IMG/VR virus record: IMGVR_UViG_3300046010_012164
Location: 1-43,012 of that record
Strand: one strand, 5' to 3'
Length of the DNA: 43,012 nt
Source of the DNA: a virus
The notes under the pieces are model-generated. The model ran no database searches, was not told where the DNA came from, and saw only the letters and a program-made list of their open reading frames with translations. A program made the translations under genes and the position numbers. Positions 13,929-43,012 of the stretch are shown piece after piece. How positions within the stretch are numbered: position 1 is the first letter of the stretch; the number at the start of each line of letters is the position of its first letter.

Positions 13929-16289
13929 CTACTTGCAGTGCCCCCAGCTCTTGTCAGACATATTCCCACCGACGTCGATGATCAGCTCGCGGGAATAGGG
14001 GATCTTGACAAGGAGCTTCGTGCGGACTTCCTCATACAGGTCGAGATGTTTGCGCCACTGGAAGACTGATGAATCGTGAACCTGGAGGAGGAAGTGAACG
14101 GGGAGATCGGAGGAGAGTACCTGTCGGATGCCGAGATTGGTGACGATTGCGATGGTGGACTGAGGGCGCCAAGCGAGGGCTTCTTTGAGAAGGTGTTCGT
14201 CGATGCGGTCGAAGTAGAAGCGCCGATAGCCGAAGATGTTCTCGACATAGCGGCGGGTCATGAGTTCCATCTTGGTCCGCTCGTGCCAAGACGCAATCCC
14301 GGGGTAGCGGGAGAGCCAGTCGTCGATGATCCGCTGGCAGAGGTCCTGCGGGAGGCCGAGGTTTTTCGAGAGGCCAAAGGCCGAGCCGCCGTAGTTAGTC
14401 CCGTGGACAGCGGCCTTGGCTAGCGGCCGGGGGATGCCCCAGCGCTTGGCGTTGTCGTCGTGGAGGGGGAACCCGTCGCGGAGCTTGTCGAGAAGTTCCC
14501 ACTCGTTCGACTCGGCAAGGACGACCTGAGCGTCGGCGGACTTGAGGTCGTAGTCGCAGAGGACGAAGCCTGGATCTGGGGTGAGCAGGCGGCGAAGGTT
14601 GGGGATGAAGAACTCAGTCGGGCCGCGCTTGGCTGGGTCTTGCTCGCCCTCGCCTTGGGTGACGTTCTGCAGATTCGTGCCGAAACCGAAGGCGTCCTCG
14701 GATGAGGCGAAGCGGAAGGTCTCCGTCCCAGCGATATTGTAGCTGCACCGAATTCGCTTATCGAAGTCGAGCGGCTGGGCGACGAAGGAAAGGGCATTGC
14801 GAAGCCGGCGGATCTCGTTGATCGAGTTAACAATCGGACGGAGGAGCGGCTCCCGGTTCGCGATCAGCTCGAGCGCGTCGGCATTCGTCGTGACGGAGCC
14901 TGGGTTCTTGGCCTTGTAGTTGAAAATCTTCTTCTGCCCCAGCTCGTCGTAGAAGAAAGCGGAGAGCTGCTTGGGGGAATTGGGGTTGAGCGGTCGGCCT
15001 ACTACGTCGTTGAGCCAGGCTTCGCGAAGAGCGACTTGGTCCTGGAGTGTGAGCATAAGGGACCGCTTGTACTCCGTGTCCACCCGGACGCCCTGAACCA
15101 TCGCATTGAGGATGATTGGGAAGAGAGACATTTGGATCTCGACCGGAGCGCCGTAAGAGGTCGAGCGGAGGTTGAGGGAAGACTCAGCCTCTGCGAGTTC
15201 TCGGGAGATAAGGATGGTGTTGATCGCGTCCTTGCAGTTGTACTCCCACAGCTGCTCCTCCGGCATCGTCCGGGGGTCCCACTCCTTCGACTCGTCTTTC
15301 CAGTACTCGTACCAGTCGAGGTAGAGAGAGGCGAGATAGTCGAGCCCCTTGGGCGTGCCCGGGAAGAGAGTGTGGTGGATGAGCATGGTGTCTCGCCACA
15401 GCCGGGGGGCGTAGCCGTACTGGCGGACAAAATACTGGGCGTCGTAGGAAAAGTTCTGCCCGATGACTCGAGCATTCGGGTGGGTAAGGATCTCGCGGAG
15501 CTTGAGGGTTATATCGAGTTCCTCATCCTCGTTCCAGTAGCACTGGTTCTCTGCCTTGACTTCCATCAGCGGGATGCAGATGCACTCGGTCGCAGAAGTA
15601 GCCAGGCCGATACAGGCGATCTGCTGGTTCCGGGTCTCGATATCGACGGAGATCTCGACCGGGCCGGAGGAGAGGCGGCAGGCGACTTCGTAGAGGAAAA
15701 AGTCGACCTGCGTGTAGCTCGGCCGGACGATGTAGGAAGTCTTCGGCTTCTTGATCTCCCCGGCCAGCAGGCGACGCGCCCGGCGGAGGTCATGGACGGT
15801 GATGTACCGCCAGGACCAATTGCGGAGAATCCCGGCTGGGTGATAGACGGGAATGACCGGGATGGAGTTGTAGAAGAGAATACTCCCCCGCCACTTCGAG
15901 ATTCCCTCCTTGCCGGTCAGGGCCCAGAGTGGTGTCCCGCCAAGGGCGATGATGAGCTGGGGCTTGACCTTCTCGATCTCCTCCTCGAGTTCCTTTACCC
16001 CCTCCGCGATCTCCGGGTGCATGAAGCGGCCGGCGCGGAGAGGCAGCCCGTCGGTCTTCTTGCCGAAGAAGAGGTCTATATCATTCCCCGGCGGGCGGTA
16101 CTTGGCTACGTTGGTGATGTAGCACTGCTCCCGCTGAATCCCCGCCTCGGCGAGCATCTTCGTCAGCTCGATCCCCGAGGTGCCTTGGAAGGGAATCCCT
16201 TTCTCTTCTTCCGTCTTCCCCGGCGCTTCGCCGACGAGTATGATTCGAGCGTTAAGCGGCCCGCTTGAGCCTACCTTGATCCGAGACAT
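13929..16289 (-). CDS. Uracil-DNA glycosylase / family A DNA polymerase fusion
   Basis: 786 aa from the ATG at 16289 (TAATG overlap with the gene before). Residues 1-190 are a UDG-superfamily domain of family 4/5 type: GEAPG at 20-24, ITNVAKYRPPGN around 58-69, HPAGILR at 150-156. Residues about 205-360 are a 3'-5' exonuclease: DIE at 216-218, N279-x3-D283, Y350-x3-D354. Residues about 390-786 are a family A polymerase: motif A with D579, motif B with R621, K625 and Y633, motif C with H738-D739. It should replicate the phage genome with proofreading. Odd point: the usual Cys of family 4 is Tyr64 here and no N-terminal CxxC is present, so the glycosylase domain should lack the 4Fe-4S cluster. 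UDG domains on phage polymerases are known (SPO1-type), but with diverse partners. Confidence 0.9.
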   Translation of the reverse strand: MSRIKVGSSGPLNARIILVGEAPGKTEEEKGIPFQGTSGIELTKMLAEAGIQREQCYITNVAKYRPPGNDIDLFFGKKTDGLPLRAGRFMHPEIAEGVKELEEEIEKVKPQLIIALGGTPLWALTGKEGISKWRGSILFYNSIPVIPVYHPAGILRNWSWRYITVHDLRRARRLLAGEIKKPKTSYIVRPSYTQVDFFLYEVACRLSSGPVEISVDIETRNQQIACIGLATSATECICIPLMEVKAENQCYWNEDEELDITLKLREILTHPNARVIGQNFSYDAQYFVRQYGYAPRLWRDTMLIHHTLFPGTPKGLDYLASLYLDWYEYWKDESKEWDPRTMPEEQLWEYNCKDAINTILISRELAEAESSLNLRSTSYGAPVEIQMSLFPIILNAMVQGVRVDTEYKRSLMLTLQDQVALREAWLNDVVGRPLNPNSPKQLSAFFYDELGQKKIFNYKAKNPGSVTTNADALELIANREPLLRPIVNSINEIRRLRNALSFVAQPLDFDKRIRCSYNIAGTETFRFASSEDAFGFGTNLQNVTQGEGEQDPAKRGPTEFFIPNLRRLLTPDPGFVLCDYDLKSADAQVVLAESNEWELLDKLRDGFPLHDDNAKRWGIPRPLAKAAVHGTNYGGSAFGLSKNLGLPQDLCQRIIDDWLSRYPGIASWHERTKMELMTRRYVENIFGYRRFYFDRIDEHLLKEALAWRPQSTIAIVTNLGIRQVLSSDLPVHFLLQVHDSSVFQWRKHLDLYEEVRTKLLVKIPYSRELIIDVGGNMSDKSWGHCK

Positions 16290-16681
16290 TACCGGCTCCG
16301 GAGATAGAGGGTGGTGAAGATGATGGCGAAGGCGAGGAGGGACCAGACGGTGGGGACGATCTTCCGGATGGTCTCGTTCGATTCCCTCGTCCCCCACATC
16401 TCATCCATCGCATCCTCCCCGTGGTTCGGGTCGAAGACCTCGATGATGTCGAGGAGCTTGTCCGCCACGAGCCCACTCCGGTGCCGCTGGGAGAAGTTCG
16501 AAATCGGCTCCACCCCGCCCGCGAGAACGAGGACGCAAAAGCCGATGTTCCAGGTGTAGACTTTGAAGAAGAAGCTGATCGGCCCCCAGCCCTTTTTGTA
16601 CCGCACCTTCCCCAGCCGGCCGAAGCCCTTCAGCCAAACCTTGATGTTGTGGAAGTAGTTAGCCCAGCCACTCTCGTCCAT
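16289..16681 (-). CDS. Two-TM membrane protein upstream of the polymerase
   Basis: 130 aa. Two hydrophobic segments are seen: about 34-56 (ISFFFKVYTWNIGFCVLVLAG) and 108-127 (VPTVWSLLAFAIIFTTLYL). The loop between is charged. The start has a good Shine-Dalgarno (AAGGGAG, 6 bases before ATG). A 117-bp gap separates it from the dNMP kinase, so it may begin a transcript with the polymerase, to which it is coupled by TAATG. It might anchor replication to the membrane or have a superinfection role. The family is not recognised. Confidence 0.6.
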   Translation of the reverse strand: MDESGWANYFHNIKVWLKGFGRLGKVRYKKGWGPISFFFKVYTWNIGFCVLVLAGGVEPISNFSQRHRSGLVADKLLDIIEVFDPNHGEDAMDEMWGTRESNETIRKIVPTVWSLLAFAIIFTTLYLRSR

Positions 16682-18791: not shown

Positions 18792-19230
18792 CCTTCCGCT
18801 CCGGGACGATGATCTGGGTGTGCGGCTTGTCCGTCTGCCCCCGGCGAGCCCAGTCGCGGATGGCCTCTTGCTTCAGCGCCTCCGCTCGATCCTCGTCACC
18901 GGAGAGGTAGTCGTCCGCGACGGTGAGCGGGCGGGAGCCTGGCGGGAGGGCGGTGGTCTTGACGCCGAGGGACTCGGGGTTCCAGACGCAGAGCAGGTCG
19001 TCGTAGACCTTGTAATGGTACTTACACCCGGGGCACTCGTAGTCCACTCCGTTGAGTGGAGGAGCCAGCTGGATCGTCTTGCAGATCGGGCAGGTGTACT
19101 CGACATCTTCCGCGAGAACCTCGTGCTGGTGGGAGCGCTTCATATCCACCACCCGGACGCCGCGCTTGATCAGACGGACGTAGGGGCGGAGGGGAAAGCG
19201 GAGCGCGTTCGGGGGGATCTCAAGCCTCAT
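18781..19230 (-). CDS. Zinc-ribbon protein
   Basis: 149 aa. Residues about 45-72 hold two CxxC knuckles (YTCPICKTI and YECPGCKYHY), a classic zinc ribbon, flanked by a basic N-terminus and an acidic/helical C-terminus. The ATG overlaps the methyltransferase stop and has AAGGAGAAG upstream. It may bind nucleic acid or host RNA polymerase; the family is not named here. Confidence 0.6.
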   Translation of the reverse strand: MRLEIPPNALRFPLRPYVRLIKRGVRVVDMKRSHQHEVLAEDVEYTCPICKTIQLAPPLNGVDYECPGCKYHYKVYDDLLCVWNPESLGVKTTALPPGSRPLTVADDYLSGDEDRAEALKQEAIRDWARRGQTDKPHTQIIVPERKDED

Positions 19231-20542
19231 CCGACTTCTCCTTCATCTCGAGGCGCGAGCGGGCGATGCCAGCGTACTTGGGGTCGAGTTCGATCAGGGT
19301 CGCGTCGCAGCCGAGCCCGTCGGAAGCCTCGAGCGTGGGGCCGGAGCCGGCGAAGGGATCAAGGACGCGAGACCCCGGGACGATGGACCATGAGAGAAGT
19401 TCCTCGAGGAGCTTCACCGGCTTCTCCGCCGGGTGGAGCTTGGCCGAGTGATGCACGGCTGGGACGTCGAGCACGTCAAGCCCGAGCTTCATCACCTTCT
19501 TATCCCCCTTCGAGGCGAAGAGGATCACCTCGTAGGTCCGCTTCGGGCCGTGCTCGGGGCGAGGTGCGTGGGCGGTCGTGCCCTTGAACCAGACGAGCGG
19601 GGTCTTCCAGACATTCCACCCAGCGATCTCGAAGAGGAGCTTGATCGAGTCGAAGTGGGCGAGGTCGCAGAAGACGAACGCGTGGGCCTCTTCGGCGCAG
19701 AGGAAGTACCCGGTCTCGGCGACGAGCTGGTAGGCGGCGAAGGCGGTTTCGACCGTGTCCTTGTACTTGTGCGCCTCGCCCATGAAGGCCGCCCCGCCGA
19801 ACTTGTGGGCGTCGACTCCGTAGGGAGGGTCGGTGAGGATGACGTCGAAGCTCCCGGGGGTGAGCGTGGGGAGGAGGTCGAAGGCCGAGCCGGTGAGGAC
19901 TTCGTGGCGGGAGCGGGAGGTGTCCGACGCCTCGGCCCCGACGGAGGCGAGGAACTCCTGCTCGATCTTCTTCTTCGCGATACGGGCTGCCTGGCCGGCG
20001 GTGCGCGCGGCGCGGACGGCTGGGTCGTTGGCAAACTGGGAAATGATGAGCGCGTCGGCCACCTTCGTCGCATCGCTCGAGGTGAACTGCTTCCCCTGGA
20101 TACCGGCGAGTTCCATCCCCGTATCCTTGAGCGTCACACCCGGGCCGTGGAGCTTCTGGTTCATCCGGTGGAGGTCAGCAATCGCCACCGCCTGGTCGAC
20201 GTGGGAGAGGTTCTTCCGGCGGAGGTTTTCCTCCAGCTCGATACGGAAGAGGTCGACCTCGGCGGTGAGGTGAGTGATGATGATCGGGACGTAGGCGGGG
20301 AGGACCTCCTGTCCGTTGTAGTAGTAAGGCGCCCCCTGTTCGGTGAGCAGCTCGAGCGCCCGGCGACGGCAATCGCCAGTAATCAAAGTGAAGTCGGGGG
20401 ATACAATCGGGGCGTGTAGTAGCCCGTTCTCCTTGATCGACTTCGCCAGCTCGACGATGTGCTCGTTCGGGATCTCTTTCCTCTGCCTTGTGGGCTGGAG
20501 CTTGAGGTGAGCGAGGGGGATGATGCTGTAGGCGTTGGACAT
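19220..20542 (-). CDS. ParB-like domain fused to a DNA methyltransferase
   Basis: 440 aa. Residues about 5-125 are a ParB/sulfiredoxin-like N-terminal domain (AHLKLQPTRQR, ELAKSIKENGLL, TLITGDCRRRALELL), followed by an HTH-like helical linker. Residues about 215-440 are a beta-class amino-methyltransferase: TDPPYGVD (motif IV, 237-243) precedes VLDPFAGSGPTLEA (motif I, 393-406), so it should methylate N6-adenine or N4-cytosine using S-adenosylmethionine. A likely role is protecting phage DNA from restriction or marking it for regulation. The ParB half may give sequence specificity or nuclease/CTPase activity. Its Shine-Dalgarno lies in the last codons of the upstream gene (TAATG overlap). Confidence 0.85.
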   Translation of the reverse strand: MSNAYSIIPLAHLKLQPTRQRKEIPNEHIVELAKSIKENGLLHAPIVSPDFTLITGDCRRRALELLTEQGAPYYYNGQEVLPAYVPIIITHLTAEVDLFRIELEENLRRKNLSHVDQAVAIADLHRMNQKLHGPGVTLKDTGMELAGIQGKQFTSSDATKVADALIISQFANDPAVRAARTAGQAARIAKKKIEQEFLASVGAEASDTSRSRHEVLTGSAFDLLPTLTPGSFDVILTDPPYGVDAHKFGGAAFMGEAHKYKDTVETAFAAYQLVAETGYFLCAEEAHAFVFCDLAHFDSIKLLFEIAGWNVWKTPLVWFKGTTAHAPRPEHGPKRTYEVILFASKGDKKVMKLGLDVLDVPAVHHSAKLHPAEKPVKLLEELLSWSIVPGSRVLDPFAGSGPTLEASDGLGCDATLIELDPKYAGIARSRLEMKEKSDEA

Positions 20543-31251: not shown

Positions 31252-31776
31252 TTACAGTTCCAGTTCCTCGCCATCGTCCTCGGCGTCCTCGGCCTTGGCG
31301 GCGGCGGCCTTGGCCCGGGCGGCTGCCCGTTCGGCCTCGAACCGCTTGATAGCCGCCGCGACCTTCGGGTTGGCCTTGAGCTTGGCCTTCTCCTCGTCCG
31401 TCTTCCCGCGGAGAACCTCCGCGATCTCGGCAACCTCCTTGCCGGTCACCTCCGCGACGGCCCGGGCGAGATCCCCGCCGTTGCCGGTGGCACGCTCGGC
31501 CCAGACGCCGGCCTCGAGGTTATCGAGAACCCGGCCCGCCTGTTCCTTTGCGTACTCCGTCGCATCGGTGGCCTTGCCCTCCGCGATGGCCTCCTTGGCC
31601 CCCGCGTAGGAATCGCGGCCCTTCTGCTCGGCCCCGTGAAGGGCCAGCCGGAGGATCATCTCCGACGGCAGGTTGCCCACATCCAGCGTCCGGCTGGAAC
31701 CGTCCGCGAAGGTCACCGTGAGGGTGCCCTTGGCGGTATCCGCTGCCCATGAGGCAGCCTTGTTGGCGCGTGACAT
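31252..31776 (-). CDS. Early paralogue 1, first gene of the early unit
   Basis: 174 aa from the ATG at 31776 (MSRANKAASW), GGAGAA upstream. It is a paralogue of the gene at 30187: GTLTVTFADGSSRTLDV, LALHGAEQKGRDSYAGAKEA, DLARAVAEVTGKEVAEIAEV, and a helical end with Ala/Glu-rich tail (AEDAEDDGEELEL). It has an acidic tail that the paralogue lacks. Being the first gene transcribed it may help host takeover. No known domain recognised. Confidence 0.65.
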   Translation of the reverse strand: MSRANKAASWAADTAKGTLTVTFADGSSRTLDVGNLPSEMILRLALHGAEQKGRDSYAGAKEAIAEGKATDATEYAKEQAGRVLDNLEAGVWAERATGNGGDLARAVAEVTGKEVAEIAEVLRGKTDEEKAKLKANPKVAAAIKRFEAERAAARAKAAAAKAEDAEDDGEELEL

Positions 31777-31875
31777 ATTGCTTCTCCGATTGCACGCGAC
31801 CCACGCGCAGGACCATCCCGCGCGCAATCCGACCGTGCTGATTGTTAAACGGGATCCGCCCGCTGGCGGCCCGGC

Positions 31876-31891
31876 ACCCTGTCATCAGGGT
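31876..31891. promoter_or_regulatory. 16-bp palindromic operator candidate
   Basis: ACCCTG TCAT CAGGGT is a perfect 6-bp inverted repeat with a 4-base centre. It lies at the predicted start point of the leftward promoter that has the CtrA-type box at its -35 region, a standard place for a repressor site. It could also form a small hairpin at the mRNA 5' end. Confidence 0.5.
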
Positions 31892-31897
31892 ACGGTC

Positions 31898-31933
31898 ACA
31901 GTATGCGGGGCTGAAGCTTAACGGAAGCTTAAC
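31898..31933 (-). promoter_or_regulatory. Leftward early promoter with a perfect CtrA-type box
   Basis: TTAACGGAAGCTTAAC (31918-31933) is exactly TTAA-N7-TTAAC, the full CtrA recognition sequence of Alphaproteobacteria, and part of an 11-bp tandem repeat starting at 31913. On the - strand a -10 candidate TACTGT (31903-31898) places the start near 31891 and the box centre near -34, the usual position for CtrA activation. The -35 hexamer itself (TTCCGT) is poor, as expected for an activator-dependent promoter. Leader to the first early gene is about 115 bases. Confidence 0.55.
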
Positions 31934-31990
31934 GGGATCGGGCCGGGCGGGCTGGATCATTACGATTAGTTAATGTTCGGCCCCGAGGGA

Positions 31991-32046
31991 TTGGCACGGT
32001 CCTTGCCGGGCCGTCCAGCCTCGGGGGCCGTGGCAAGGATCATGCC
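31991..32046 (+). promoter_or_regulatory. Sigma54-like promoter element / inverted repeat before the late genes
   Basis: TTGGCACGGTCCTTGC (31991-32006) matches the RpoN consensus TGGCACG-N4-TTGC with the correct GG-to-GC spacing. A weaker second match, TGGCAAGGATCATGC, is at 32031-32045. The two segments are also near-perfect inverted repeats (31993-32007 and 32032-32046), so a hairpin or dimer-binding site is an alternative. The region is in the 31777-32283 gap, which has no gene I can support, and points at the late operon. No sigma70-type rightward promoter was found there. Confidence 0.45.
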
Positions 32047-32283
32047 AGGCCGGCGGCCTGCCGCGCAGCGGCGACCGGCACCCTCCCCCAGGCCACCCCC
32101 TCGCGCGCCTTCCTTCCACCCCTCTCTCCGCTCCGAGCCGGTTTGAACAAACGGGGTGGATTATTCCCCATTATCCGGGGTGATTTACTCCCACCCCCTC
32201 ACCCAGCGCCGGCCGCCGGCTTCCGCCCGCCCGCGGGAAAGTGCGGTTGTCAGGGAAGGAGTCTCCGGGTTAACGTGCGGGCT

Positions 32284-33402
32284 ATGGCGGAGCAGTCCCG
32301 AGTCGGCCAATTCCTCTCCCAGCCGAATCCGCTCGCGGGATTGAGGACGGATGTTGCGCCCTTTATCGACGAGAACCTCAGCGAAGCCGCGGTGATGAAT
32401 CTGCTGTCCTCGATGCTCAAGACCGCCCCGGCGACGGAGCCGACCCTCGGGGGCGTGGCCGAGCAGATGGCGCTGGGCCTCGGTCGGGCGACCGACCCGC
32501 GGATTGCTGGGGCGAAGACCATCCCAGAGGCGAACCAGATGGTCGAGGGCCAGGGGCCGCCATCGGTCGGGGAGATGCTTAATTCTCCGATGTTCCCCCT
32601 CGCAGGGATCAACCTCTGGCATGGGAGTGGACGCTTGTTCTCCCCCGAGCCCGGCGCACCGTTCGGTCGCTTCCGGGATGATAAGATGGGAACCGGCGTC
32701 GGGATGCAGCGGTTCGGGAAGGGCCATTACCTGAGCGACGCAAAGGGCGAGGCCCGGGACTACGCCCTCGCCGGGAGGAACACAGCCGATGTTCTCTACG
32801 AGGGCCGGCCCGCCTGGCTCCCGCTGGAGAACAAAGAGATCGACCGGTCGAGCGTGGCCGGGATGGCGCTCAGGGAGATCGACAAGTACAAGTCCTTCGA
32901 CTTCACGCTGAAGAAGATGGAGCAAGAGGCTCTCATCACCAGCATGCAGAAGGACAAGTACCTCTCGGAGATGTATACGGAAGTCGCCGAGTGGCTGAAG
33001 AAGAACAAGGAAAAGTTCTCCGTCCCCCAGGCGAGTCTGTACTCGGTCGAGCTCGATGATGCTGTAGCCGAGCGGATGCGGAGACTCGAGGAGGTTCTCC
33101 CGAAGGGGCAGAAGAACGAGCTCAGCTGGCTCCTCCGTGATGAGGCCCAGAGGGGCCCGCCGGAGGCCCGGTATGGCCTCGGGGAGCTGCTCACCCGACT
33201 CCGGGAGCCGGACAGCACGCTGGGAAGTTTCTACCCCTCACTCGACAACCGCTACCCCCGCCTGGGTGAGGTGCTCCTCGAGTACCTCGGCTCCCCGGGG
33301 GTGAAGTATCTCAGCCGCAGCGCCGCCAGGAATGGTGGTCAGATGAACTACGTGGTACGCGACCCGGATTTGCTTACCATCGTTGGTCGAGAGAACCCGT
33401 AA
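32284..33402 (+). CDS. ADP-ribosyltransferase-like protein (ART-PolyVal type)
   Basis: 372 aa from the ATG at 32284; in-frame alternatives at 32275 (GTG) and 32143 exist and the ribosome site AAGGAG is poorly spaced, so the start is uncertain. The core matches the ART domain of phage polyvalent proteins: LWHGSGRLF (His113), then GTGVGMQRFGKGHYLSDAKG (about 136-155), and a C-terminal NYVVRDPDLLTIV (about 355-367). This family transfers ADP-ribose from NAD+ to a target. It is the first late gene, just before the terminase, so it may be packaged and injected (as T4 Alt) or act late. The N-terminal 105 residues contain no recognised domain. Confidence 0.7.
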   Translation: MAEQSRVGQFLSQPNPLAGLRTDVAPFIDENLSEAAVMNLLSSMLKTAPATEPTLGGVAEQMALGLGRATDPRIAGAKTIPEANQMVEGQGPPSVGEMLNSPMFPLAGINLWHGSGRLFSPEPGAPFGRFRDDKMGTGVGMQRFGKGHYLSDAKGEARDYALAGRNTADVLYEGRPAWLPLENKEIDRSSVAGMALREIDKYKSFDFTLKKMEQEALITSMQKDKYLSEMYTEVAEWLKKNKEKFSVPQASLYSVELDDAVAERMRRLEEVLPKGQKNELSWLLRDEAQRGPPEARYGLGELLTRLREPDSTLGSFYPSLDNRYPRLGEVLLEYLGSPGVKYLSRSAARNGGQMNYVVRDPDLLTIVGRENP

Positions 33403-33995: not shown

Positions 33996-34389
33996 AGAGG
34001 AAGCTCTCGAGTACCTCTACCACCGGCTCGGCTCGGGCTTCGGGCAGAAGCTTTGGTTCTGCTACCAGGCAGAATACCGGCCCTACCCGTGCTACTGCCA
34101 GGTCGACGCTCTCTTCGATCCGGGTGAAGATGAAGGGGACCTCACGCTCTTCGAGGTCAAGTACCGGCACACGCCCGACACGTACTTCCAGCTCACCAAC
34201 ATTTACCTGCCGGTTCTCCGGGCTGCTTACCCTTCGCGGCGTATTGCCGTATGCGAAGTCGTCCGATGGTTCGACCCAGGGACAGCCTTCCCAGTCCCGG
34301 TCGTTCTCGCGCCCGATCCCGGCGCCGTCCGGCTCAACGACTTCTCCGTCCACATCTTTAATTCGCCCGTGAGAAAGAAGATCCGGTGA
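33853..34389 (+). CDS. PD-(D/E)XK nuclease-fold protein next to terminase
   Basis: 178 aa. CQVDALFD followed by LTLFEVKYRHTPDTYFQL fits a PD-(D/E)XK core: Asp, then Glu-x-Lys on the next strand, then a Gln/Leu helix. A conserved-looking RNPRFRAGIRYEEEALEYL precedes it. Small PD-(D/E)XK proteins next to TerL occur in many phages and may act in packaging, DNA maturation or end trimming; the precise role is unknown. Its stop overlaps the TerL GTG. Confidence 0.6.
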   Translation: MESSSSPPVKQREFKPVGKVSWAHRVSEPPFKLKATRNPRFRAGIRYEEEALEYLYHRLGSGFGQKLWFCYQAEYRPYPCYCQVDALFDPGEDEGDLTLFEVKYRHTPDTYFQLTNIYLPVLRAAYPSRRIAVCEVVRWFDPGTAFPVPVVLAPDPGAVRLNDFSVHIFNSPVRKKIR

Positions 34390-35885
34390 TGCAGTCAACC
34401 GCCATGCATGTTCAGTCCCCGGGCGTTGAGGCACCCCCCGCCTCCGCTCGCGAGTTGATTGAGCTCGCCGCGGCTGACCCGATCTTCTTCTCCCGGGCGT
34501 TTTTTCCCAAGACCGCGCGGCAGAAGTCCCCGTGGTTCCACTCGCAGATCTGGAACCTCCTCGAGACCGGCGGGAATCCGTATGTCGGGATCGAGGTCTT
34601 CCGCGGCGGGGCCAAGACGACGATCGTCCGGCTCAACCTCGCGAAGAGGATTTCCTACTCCATCTCCCGCACGATCCTCATCGTCTCCGCCTCCCAGTCC
34701 CACGCGGCCCGGAGCGTCCGGTGGCTGAAGTCCCAGGTGGAAAAGAACGCCACCTGGGCTAACACCTTCCGGCTGCGGAAGGGGAACAAGTGGACGGACG
34801 AAGAGATCGAGATCGTCAACGGGATCACTGGTGAGTCCACCTTCGTCCTCGCCGTCGGCATCACCGGCCAGATCCGCGGCGTGAACCTCGAGGACTACCG
34901 GCCGGACTTTATCGTCGCTGACGACCCGTGCGATGAGGAGAACTCGGGAACGGATGAGCAGCTGAAGAAGACGGCCGAGCTTTTCTTCGGCGCCCTTGCC
35001 CCGGGCTTGGCCCCGCGGAGCGAGTGCCCGAACGCGATGATGGTTCTGCTCCAGACCTCGATCTCAAACAAGGATCTCATCAACACGGCGCACAAGGATC
35101 CTCAGTGGCGGACGTTCAAGTTTCCCATCATCGTGGACAAGGAAGGGGTTAAGGCCAGCGCCTGGCCCGACCGGTGGACGCTCGAAGAGCTCGTCCAGAT
35201 GAAAGAGAGCTACACCCGCCGCGGGCAGCTGTACCTGTGGCTCCGGGAGTACGAGTGCACGATTACTTCGCCGGAAGAAGCTCCGCTGAAGATGGACGCG
35301 CTTCGCTACTACGAGGTCAGTCCCGAGTCGATGATCGTCTACTTCGGTCTCGACCCCGCCCGGCCGAAGAGCAAAAACCCCCACAAGTCCTGCCTCTCCG
35401 CCGTTGGGCGAGTCGGGCGGGATGTGTACCTCCTCGAGTACTTCACCCAGACGAACGTGAACCCGGATGAGCTGTGGAATAGCTTCTACGCTATGGCCCT
35501 CCGCTGGCGTCCGTTCATGGTCGGGGTGGAGACGATTGCCTACCAGCAGGCCCTCGCCTGGTACTTCAGGAAGAAGATGGTCGAGGTCGGCGTCTTCTGG
35601 CAGGTGAAGGAAGTTGAAGACCGGCGCCGGAAGGCTGACCGGATCATTCAGGAAATTGCTGGGCTCGCTTCGGAGGGTCACCTCTATGTCCGACCGACGC
35701 AGGATGAGTGGATTGAAGCCTACCGCTCTTGGCGGGTTGGAGAGGACCAAGATCTCCTCGACTCTACCGCCCTTGCCATTGCCCTTTCGGGGAATCTCGT
35801 CCTCTCGGTCGGTGACGAAAGCGCCATCCCTCTCTTGGATGAAAGCAATATACCGGATCTGCAGCTTGAACTCGGGTGCCCGTAA
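34386..35885 (+). CDS. terL: Terminase large subunit
   Basis: 499 aa from the GTG at 34386 (an ATG follows directly). The ATPase has a TerL-type Walker A VFRGGAKTT (71-79) and Walker B FIVADDP (Asp179, Asp180). The nuclease domain, about 315-490, has D323 (FGLDPARP), E382 (VGVETIAYQ) and D459 (DLLDSTAL) as metal ligands of the RNase H-like fold. It packages DNA into the prohead and cuts the concatemer. It is followed by the portal gene with TAATG overlap. Confidence 0.9.
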   Translation: MMQSTAMHVQSPGVEAPPASARELIELAAADPIFFSRAFFPKTARQKSPWFHSQIWNLLETGGNPYVGIEVFRGGAKTTIVRLNLAKRISYSISRTILIVSASQSHAARSVRWLKSQVEKNATWANTFRLRKGNKWTDEEIEIVNGITGESTFVLAVGITGQIRGVNLEDYRPDFIVADDPCDEENSGTDEQLKKTAELFFGALAPGLAPRSECPNAMMVLLQTSISNKDLINTAHKDPQWRTFKFPIIVDKEGVKASAWPDRWTLEELVQMKESYTRRGQLYLWLREYECTITSPEEAPLKMDALRYYEVSPESMIVYFGLDPARPKSKNPHKSCLSAVGRVGRDVYLLEYFTQTNVNPDELWNSFYAMALRWRPFMVGVETIAYQQALAWYFRKKMVEVGVFWQVKEVEDRRRKADRIIQEIAGLASEGHLYVRPTQDEWIEAYRSWRVGEDQDLLDSTALAIALSGNLVLSVGDESAIPLLDESNIPDLQLELGCP

Positions 35886-37858
35886 TGGTTGAGTCGCTGA
35901 ACAAAGAACTTCGCTGGGATACGCCTCTGCACGAGAAGATCCTCCGTGCGGTGGTCGATCGGAAGAAGTTCTCCGAGGACAAGATGGCTAAGGCCCGGGA
36001 GCGCTGGATGCAGGCGGACAAAGACATTGTCGCCTATATCCCCAAGAGCGCTGCGGACAACGATCGCCAGGGCCGGCGGGACAATCGTGGGGTGCTGGAC
36101 TATGTCACCCTCGAGGTCCCCTACGCCTACGCCACGATCGCCTCGATGCATACCTACCTGACGAGCGTCTTCCTTTCCCGCTCGCCGGTGTACCAGGTCT
36201 CCGCCCGCCACGGCGAAGGGCAGGATTCGATCCTCGCCCTCGAGGCTGTGCTCGACTACCAGAACAAGGTCGGGAATCACCTTCCGATTCTCTACAACTG
36301 GTTCTGGGACGCGGCCAAGTACGGCATCGGTGTGGTCGGGGAGTACTGGGACGAAGAGACCCTCCGCATGGCTCGGATCGTGGAGAAGGAAAAGAAGTTC
36401 TTCGGGATCGGGACGGGGAAGATGGAGACCGTGAAGGAGGTCTTCGAGACCCTCGGGTATCAGGGGAATAAGCTCTACTCCATCCGCCCGTTCGACTGGT
36501 TCCCTGACCCCCGCGTTCCGGTGAATGACTTCCAGTCCGGTGAGTTCTGCGGCCGGCAGGTCTCCGTCGGGCTCTCCTATGTCGAGGAGCAAAGCTACTC
36601 CGGCCGGTACTTCAACGTCGATCTCCTTCGGAAGACGAAGGGGGATCGCGACGAGATCCGCCGGGCGATGAACGAGTCGGCCAGCTACGGCACCGCGCTC
36701 AATCCGACCGAGACCAACGCCGGCTCGCCCTATGTGGACCAGCCTTACGGCCGCGGGACCTACTGGGCGGAAGAGGTCGGAAAGGGATTCCTAACCCTGC
36801 TGGAGATGGTGGTCAGGATCATCCCGCGGGACTGGGGACTCGGTGAGTCCACCCGGTGCGAGAAGTGGGTCTTCACCGTCGCGAACGAGACCCTCGTCAT
36901 CGGCGCCCGCCCGCTGGCCCTCTACCACGACAAGTTCCCCTATTCCATCCTCGAGACAGGTTTCGGGTCGGAGGAGTTCATCAAGTACTCCACCCTCGAC
37001 CACATCCGCCCGCTGGCCCAGACGATGACCTGGCTGTTCAACACTCACATGTGGAACGTCCGGAAGGCGATCAACGATGTGCGGGTGGTGGATCCTTCGA
37101 AGATCGTAATGAAGGATCTCGAGCGCCCCCAGCCGGGCGGCGTAATCAGGCTGAAGCCGAGCTTCTACGGCGGAGACGTCCGGACGGCCGTGACCCAGCT
37201 CCAGGCCGTCGACGTGACCCGGGCCCACATGCAGGACTCGCGGATCGTCGAGGAACTGATCCAGCGGGTCTCGGGCGTGACGGATAACATCATGGGCCTC
37301 GTGGCGGAGGGCGGCCGGAAGACGGCGACGGAGGTCCGCACGGCCTCGGGCTTCAGCGTCAACCGGATGAAGACGGTTGCGGAATACTTCTCCGCCCTCG
37401 GCTTCTCCCCGCTCCTCTCCCGGATGATCTCGAACACCCAGCAGCTGATGACTATGGAGACCAAGTTTGCCGTCGCCGGTGGGCTGGCCAACGAGGCCCA
37501 GCGGTTCATGGACGTCAACCCGAACGCTCTCGCCGGGTTCTACGACTTCGTCCCAGTCGACGGTACTCTCCCTATCGACCGGCTGGCCCAGGCGAACTTC
37601 TGGAAGGAACTCCTTGTCCAGCTCATCCGCGTTCCCCAGCTTGCCCAGCAGTGGGATTTCGGGGCGATGATCGCTCACACGATGAGCCTTCAGGGCGAGC
37701 GGAACGTGAATCGGTTCAAGATCCAAGTCGCCCCTCCAGGGGCAACGCCGGGGAGCACCCTCGGCGGCAACGTTATCCCAATCGGAGGTATGAATGGACC
37801 TGCAGGACCAGCTTCGCCAGCTACGGGAGCAGGCGGCGCTACTCCGCTCATTGGTTGA
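35885..37858 (+). CDS. Portal protein
   Basis: 657 aa from the ATG at 35885. Position directly after TerL and the pattern of long helices with a central hydrophobic region match podovirus portals: a membrane-free stem/wing protein with YNWFWDAAKYGIGVVGEYW, SIRPFDWFPDPRVPVNDFQ, IVEELIQRVSGVTDNIMG and GGRKTATEVRTASGFSVNRM. Twelve copies would form the ring through which DNA passes. The C-terminus is Gly/Pro/Ala-rich. Its 3' end overlaps the next gene by 65 bp. Confidence 0.85.
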   Translation: MVESLNKELRWDTPLHEKILRAVVDRKKFSEDKMAKARERWMQADKDIVAYIPKSAADNDRQGRRDNRGVLDYVTLEVPYAYATIASMHTYLTSVFLSRSPVYQVSARHGEGQDSILALEAVLDYQNKVGNHLPILYNWFWDAAKYGIGVVGEYWDEETLRMARIVEKEKKFFGIGTGKMETVKEVFETLGYQGNKLYSIRPFDWFPDPRVPVNDFQSGEFCGRQVSVGLSYVEEQSYSGRYFNVDLLRKTKGDRDEIRRAMNESASYGTALNPTETNAGSPYVDQPYGRGTYWAEEVGKGFLTLLEMVVRIIPRDWGLGESTRCEKWVFTVANETLVIGARPLALYHDKFPYSILETGFGSEEFIKYSTLDHIRPLAQTMTWLFNTHMWNVRKAINDVRVVDPSKIVMKDLERPQPGGVIRLKPSFYGGDVRTAVTQLQAVDVTRAHMQDSRIVEELIQRVSGVTDNIMGLVAEGGRKTATEVRTASGFSVNRMKTVAEYFSALGFSPLLSRMISNTQQLMTMETKFAVAGGLANEAQRFMDVNPNALAGFYDFVPVDGTLPIDRLAQANFWKELLVQLIRVPQLAQQWDFGAMIAHTMSLQGERNVNRFKIQVAPPGATPGSTLGGNVIPIGGMNGPAGPASPATGAGGATPLIG

Positions 37859-42736: not shown

Positions 42737-43012
42737 GTGCCTTTGACGACGAATCAGGACTTTGTCTCTCTCCTCATGTCTCGCCTCGGCCGGCGGACGG
42801 CTCAGAACATCCGCCCGACGGTGGTGGATGAGCTGAACCTTGCCCGCATCCAGGCGGAGGCGAACCCCTTCATCCCGTTCTTCCTCTTCTCTGTCCAGCC
42901 GGTTGGTCTTCCAGCCGGTATCTCGTCGGTGAACCTTCCTCCTGGCTTCATCATGGAGCAAGAGGATTCCGAGCCGTACCTCGTCGCGACGGATGACGGG
43001 ACGGAGTCGCCT
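42737..43012 (+). CDS. Adaptor (head-tail connector) protein, N-terminal part
   Basis: Starts at the GTG at 42737, three bases after the previous gene's end, and runs to the window edge. PLTTNQDFVSLLMSRLGRRT and VVDELNLARIQAEANPFIPF are typical for the N-terminal helices of phage adaptor proteins. The protein continues at 1-534 (see that entry) for about 226 aa in all. The last three bases of the window break the match to the start and should not be translated. Confidence 0.75.
   Translation, partial: MPLTTNQDFVSLLMSRLGRRTAQNIRPTVVDELNLARIQAEANPFIPFFLFSVQPVGLPAGISSVNLPPGFIMEQEDSEPYLVATDDGTESP
42884..43009. repeat. Terminal redundancy, right copy
   Basis: Identical to bases 1-126. See the left copy. 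Confidence 0.95.

Follow-up and report, generated by a model that had tools for sequence, protein, structure and literature searches.

Facing sigma-54-like elements in the early/late gap of an uncultured phage and in other viral contigs

We analysed a 43,012-nucleotide virus record over its full length (IMGVR_UViG_3300046010_012164; hereafter the window) and found two facing sigma-54-like elements in the gap that separates its early and late genes. Our first-ranked reading, which we hold tentatively and with serious reservations, is that these elements may be the core promoters of the gap. Similar pairs recur upstream of the packaging genes in many unrelated environmental phages. The original prediction for this region had centred on a CtrA-type TTAA box in the same gap. 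That prediction was partly supported: the box proved real, non-random and situated in a control gap with extra half-sites, whereas an alphaproteobacterial host and conservation of the box were not supported, and the sigma-54-like pair beside the box had been overlooked.

Sigma-54-like elements at the early/late boundary

The two ends of the window form a near-exact direct repeat of about 129 bases (1-129 and 42884-43012), so this 43-kb phage genome is probably complete, either circular or terminally repeated. A gap at 31777-32283 (507 bp, 67% GC, 1.2% of the window length) divides leftward genes, which run from 31776 down to 12692, from rightward genes, which begin at 32284. Because the leftward block includes PolA, a Sak4-like protein and a ParB-methylase fusion, and the rightward block carries TerL (34386), portal (35876) and MCP (39016), the gap is the early/late boundary, with the temporal classes assigned from gene content (Table 1). 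The original prediction had placed the box in an early/late control region, and this was borne out by the divergent gap of roughly 500 bp between the leftward early and rightward late genes. The leftward genes include one (13929-16397, minus strand) for a DNA polymerase I that carries a uracil-DNA-glycosylase-like domain at its N terminus, and another (19220-20542, minus strand) for a fusion of a ParB-like domain with an N6/N4 DNA methylase.

Table 1 Features in and around the early/late gap of the window
Feature	Position	Strand	Family match or basis
First leftward (early) gene, 174 aa, without Pfam match	31252..31776	-	
TTAA half-site	31845..31848	.	
Perfect inverted repeat ACCCTG-TCAT-CAGGGT, operator-like	31876..31891	.	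read from sequence
-10-like CATACT (4/6), leftward candidate; no -35 at normal spacing	31900..31905	-	read from sequence
Tandem 11-bp direct repeat, AAGCTTAACGG x2; candidate activator site	31914..31935	.	
CtrA-type box, TTAA-N7-TTAAC	31918..31933	+	
TTAA half-site inside TAGTTAATG, a 9-mer common to the L008 gap	31970..31973	.	
Inverted repeat, 25-nt arms, 76% complementary, holding both sigma-54-like elements	31983..32056	.	
Sigma-54-like -24/-12 element TGGCACGGTCCTTGC; predicted start ~32018, rightward (late)	31992..32006	+	
Sigma-54-like -24/-12 element TGGCATGATCCTTGC; predicted start ~32021, leftward (early)	32033..32047	-	
Imperfect repeats CGGGGTGGATTATTCCC / CGGGGTGATTTACTCCC, upstream of the leftward element; putative second activator site	32152..32192	.	
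TTAA half-site adjoining the late gene start	32270..32273	.	
First rightward (late) gene; alternative GTG start at 32275	32284..33402	+	
Terminase large subunit	34386..35885	+	phrog_38
Portal / head-tail adaptor	35876..37858	+	phrog_332, phrog_15554

Both elements match TGGCAYR-N4-TTGC (TTGGCACGGTCCTTGCC at 31991-32007 on the plus strand and CTGGCATGATCCTTGCC at 32048-32032 on the minus strand). They are the only two strict matches (TGGCAYRNNNNTTGC) in the window, face each other over 56 bp end to end, are rarer than the TTAA box and lie 58 bp from it. About 0.03 strict sites are expected per window; shuffling the gap gave a P of 7.8e-4 for one or more strict sites, and two sites appeared in 0 of 200,000 shuffles. 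When the window was scored with a PWM built from viral sites, the pair ranked first and second (18.0 and 17.3), and the third site scored 10.3. Each element lies upstream of genes in its predicted direction, leftward from 31776 and rightward from 32284, and the terminase gene is 2.3 kb from the pair. With bacterial sigma-54 (RpoN) promoters, whose -24/-12 consensus is discussed in PMC3162934, the window elements share GG and GC at the exact spacing, Y at -27 and the TGGCAYG and TTGC blocks. They differ from these promoters in having C instead of A/T at -11, in facing each other within a near-perfect inverted repeat and in being phage-borne. Several observations count against the sigma-54 reading. 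A/T is preferred at -11, and C stands there in roughly 6% of viral sites (2 of 41 where the locus has a GC content of at least 60%); by score, the window elements fall near the 5-10% quantile of the viral set. Neither a sigma-54 activator nor an RpoN gene was recognised in the window, and the 35 terminase relatives had no strict sigma-54 match and no pair at the equivalent place.

The main rival to a sigma-54 pair, which we take seriously while thinking it somewhat improbable, is that 31983-32056 would be an ordinary hairpin or operator, for instance the binding site of a phage repressor or a stem-loop in a leader RNA. The sigma-54 likeness would then be coincidental and carried to both arms by symmetry, and the TTAA repeat would serve another regulator. 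The symmetry is strong: the stem has about 20 pairs, a 91-nt stretch folds at -55 kcal/mol (z -2.3; 4 of 200 shuffles fold as well), and by folding energy per base the window pair ranks second for hairpin character among 154 pairs. A single coincidence combined with an inverted repeat could therefore account for both elements, and the C at -11 in both arms also fits an ordinary hairpin. However, the two arms diverge at -21 (C/T) and within the N4 spacer, where sigma-54 sites vary, and the coincidence needed is one of 7.8e-4 exactly where such pairs recur. The absence of exact copies of the inverted repeat from the other viral contigs likewise argues against a hairpin of this ordinary kind.

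If the sigma-54 reading is correct, the gap would control transcription in both directions in a lytic-type phage, and within it the rightward element (31992-32006) would drive the late operon and the leftward element (32047-32033) the early genes. The predicted starts, 32018 and 32021, nearly coincide, so one holoenzyme at a time could use the pair; such mutual exclusion would create an either/or switch between early and late expression. Relative to the rightward promoter, the tandem 11-bp TTAA repeat would span about -83 to -105, where upstream activator sites usually lie, and it may be bound by an activator. The host's sigma-54 activator would be needed because the window encodes no recognisable one. 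Late expression of the phage would depend on a host sigma factor that is unable to start without an ATP-driven activator, and infection would be responsive to nitrogen, motility or stress signals. The same reading would provide a host clue, the requirement for rpoN, for many uncultured phages.

The TTAA box and the CtrA reading

The box of the original prediction, TTAACGGAAGCTTAAC, is a perfect CtrA-type match on the plus strand at 31918-31933, the single occurrence of TTAA-N7-TTAAC in the window. Dinucleotide shuffling of the whole window produced the full box in 0 of 100 shuffles and TTAA-N7-TTAA at a mean of 0.04 per shuffle; when the 507-bp gap was shuffled alone, the probabilities were 5e-4 for the full box and 1.2e-3 for TTAA-N7-TTAA. 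The gap also holds 5 of the window's 50 copies of TTAA (binomial P 3e-4), an approximately 8-fold enrichment of half-sites. The TTAA box is non-random. The 11-bp direct repeat that had been described as containing the box is present too, and is the sole exact adjacent 11-bp repeat in the window. The N7 spacing of the box results from this tandem repeat and does not count as a further coincidence. Direct copies of TTAA repeated every 11 bp would fit any OmpR/PhoB-type regulator.

We consider it unlikely that the box has no regulatory role and arose by chance through tandem duplication within a gap poor in AT. Such an origin would be consistent with the relatives that lack a TTAA box, and with the frequency in viral contigs of a similar 11-bp-spaced TTAACGG repeat, which is near the chance rate (the rate being an estimate). 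The gap-shuffle P of 5e-4 argues against it, as does the fact that further TTAA half-sites cluster in the gap.

It is possible, if quite improbable in our view, that phosphorylated host CtrA would bind 31918-31933 and activate or repress leftward early transcription from about 31893, coupling infection to the host cell cycle. Regulation of this kind is published and is not new in kind. CtrA sites are already established in gaps of alphaproteobacterial phages (PMC9437464), and these CtrA-regulated phages likewise carry TTAA-N7-TTAA between divergent gene blocks (Mascolo et al. 2022, PMC9437464); the Brevundimonas phage vB_BsubS-Delta has 12 CtrA sites in a 1.3-kb gap (PMC9437464). If true, the CtrA reading would add one further case. 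The published phages have dense sites, known alphaproteobacterial hosts and EMSA and reporter data, whereas the window has one full box and may belong to a host that does not use CtrA. Binding by CtrA is favoured by the full box itself, with its gap-shuffle P and the five copies of TTAA in the gap, and by the position of the box, whose centre lies about -33 relative to a weak -10, an arrangement shared with CtrA-activated promoters. The proposed leftward promoter geometry is weak: CATACT matches a -10 at 4/6, there is no -35 hexamer at 16-18 bp, and a sigma-70 scan did not report the candidate at 31905-31900. Against CtrA stand the single full box in place of a dense cluster, the derivation of the box from a tandem 11-bp repeat, and the lack of TTAA box enrichment near viral sigma-54 pairs. 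The CtrA and sigma-54 readings are not fully mutually exclusive, as an Alphaproteobacterium could possess both regulators.

Two further sequences lie nearby. The perfect inverted repeat at 31876-31891 is directly downstream of the proposed leftward -10 and near the proposed start, and is a candidate operator. The best sigma-70 match nearby is a near-consensus TTGACA-16-TATGAT (30781-30754, minus strand; 11/12) inside the early region.

Relatives were collected by terminase (35 loci, 35-46% identity) and by polymerase (MW202489, Mel-JY34, VS-ABTNL-3 and Caulobacter phage Kuura), and the box was searched for in 37 records, the window included. The closest sequenced phages are MW202489 (PolA 43%) and Microcystis phage Mel-JY34 (PolA and TerL 40%), together with Vibrio phage VS-ABTNL-3 and Caulobacter phage Kuura. 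These phages have a divergent early/late boundary, a UDG-PolA, a terminase and a portal in a gene order similar to that of the window. Unlike the window, they have no sigma-54 pair, and their early/late gaps lack TTAA-N7-TTAAC, with the exception of VS-ABTNL-3, which has one at position 290 (GC 44%, about 0.7 expected by chance). Scanning relatives for the box, as the original prediction had proposed, gave a box at the same place in 1 of the 36 other records, the terminase relative L008/G739, where the flanking motif is different. The L008 box favours CtrA, and the absence of the box from the gap of the other full-length relatives, Kuura included, counts against it.

The L008 record contains 4 full boxes (0 in the reversed control), the sole excess among the 37 records; one of these boxes falls between its early and late genes, some 112-127 bp ahead of the leftward gene. 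These boxes share the left flank GTAGTTAAY, which is also present without a second TTAA; the window repeat is unlike this motif except for one TAGTTAATG half-site. In the L008 phage, GTAGTTAAY may be an operator, a promoter or a CtrA-type site. Four GTAGTTAAY repeats (L008:7495-7515, L008:4359-4379, L305:2446-2463 and L305:15276-15295) are extended to TTAA-N7-TTAA(C) and are mostly intergenic.

That the box predicts an alphaproteobacterial host was not supported. The window has no strong avoidance of GANTC, the CcrM site (obs/exp 0.73, compared with 0.92-1.04 in L008), and the searches gave no evidence of such a host, both of which weigh against CtrA. TerL, PolA and whole-DNA searches found relatives that reach about 46% identity at most and have mixed hosts; the one exception was a 15-kb contig that is identical over PolA and ends short of the gap. 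Searching PolA in 385 genomes of Alphaproteobacteria and 294 of the Zavarzinella phylum (Planctomycetota) gave distant homologues only and nothing close, and a search with the first leftward gene found no relatives. In Caulobacter phages Kuura (0.25) and RW (0.24) (L159 and L233), no 5-letter palindrome is more depleted than GANTC, which is a possible host marker.

Sigma-54 clusters in other viral contigs

Facing sigma-54 pairs were found in at least 119 IMG/VR contigs (0 in the reversed control), and the single motif was found in 43 of 43 whole records (0 of 43 in the reversed control). Across 570 distinct viral sites, columns that had not been part of the search recover the sigma-54 consensus, with T at -27 and 92% A/T at -11. 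The motif evidence pointing to sigma-54 elements in these other phages is strong. Using an iterated terminase profile, we found a terminase 0.19-2.7 kb from the pair and pointing away from it in 54 of the 64 loci with a terminase match, among the matches listed, although these 64 loci include several near-copies and are not 64 independent cases. Family searches placed a terminase beside the pair in L053, L072, L097, L153 and L129; in the first four, as in the window, the pair has leftward genes on one side and a rightward terminase operon on the other.

Spacing peaks at 33-38 bp for facing pairs, at 38-40 and 50 bp for back-to-back pairs and at 41-43 bp for tandem pairs, counts that are shaped by which loci were chosen and by the range searched. 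We rejected the idea that the facing geometry is special: back-to-back pairs are about as common, and the general feature is therefore clusters of sigma-54 elements. Also rejected were viral pairs as hairpins or integron-like repeats (between the two arms, spacers and flanks agree at chance level only) and TTAA boxes as regular companions of the pairs.

Clusters with facing and back-to-back elements occupy divergent gaps upstream of terminase genes in the IMG/VR loci L039-L157, for example L053:8262-8420, L066:1421-1469, L049:3466-3596 and L129:3912-4051. They resemble the window in having facing elements in a divergent gap a few kb before the terminase and no phage activator found. They differ from it in that their pairs typically span 33-38 bp, carry A/T at -11, are not hairpins and accompany terminases of other groups. 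The membership of the window among sigma-54-cluster phages is uncertain. The 43 viral records contained no RpoN and one weak match to a sigma-54 activator domain. No strict sigma-54 site was found in the stretches examined of MW202545, Caulobacter phage RW and MW202640, which are cultured or complete relatives of sigma-54 phages. Cellular genomes totalling 257 Gb contained the same pattern in only 64 stretches, many of them within genes, at gene ends or between convergent genes.

We propose, as a conjecture that we hold with considerable doubt, that many unrelated uncultured phages, the window included, may place an early/late switch under host sigma-54 by means of facing -24/-12 promoters at the divergent boundary before the terminase. 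Late expression would then await a host activator that senses nutrient or stress state. A search of open-licence papers turned up no description of clustered sigma-54 promoters in phages. The L066 record, a 93.9-kb viral contig, carries 13 sigma-54 elements on a single strand in a stretch of about 3 kb (G016:C1:16582-19611).
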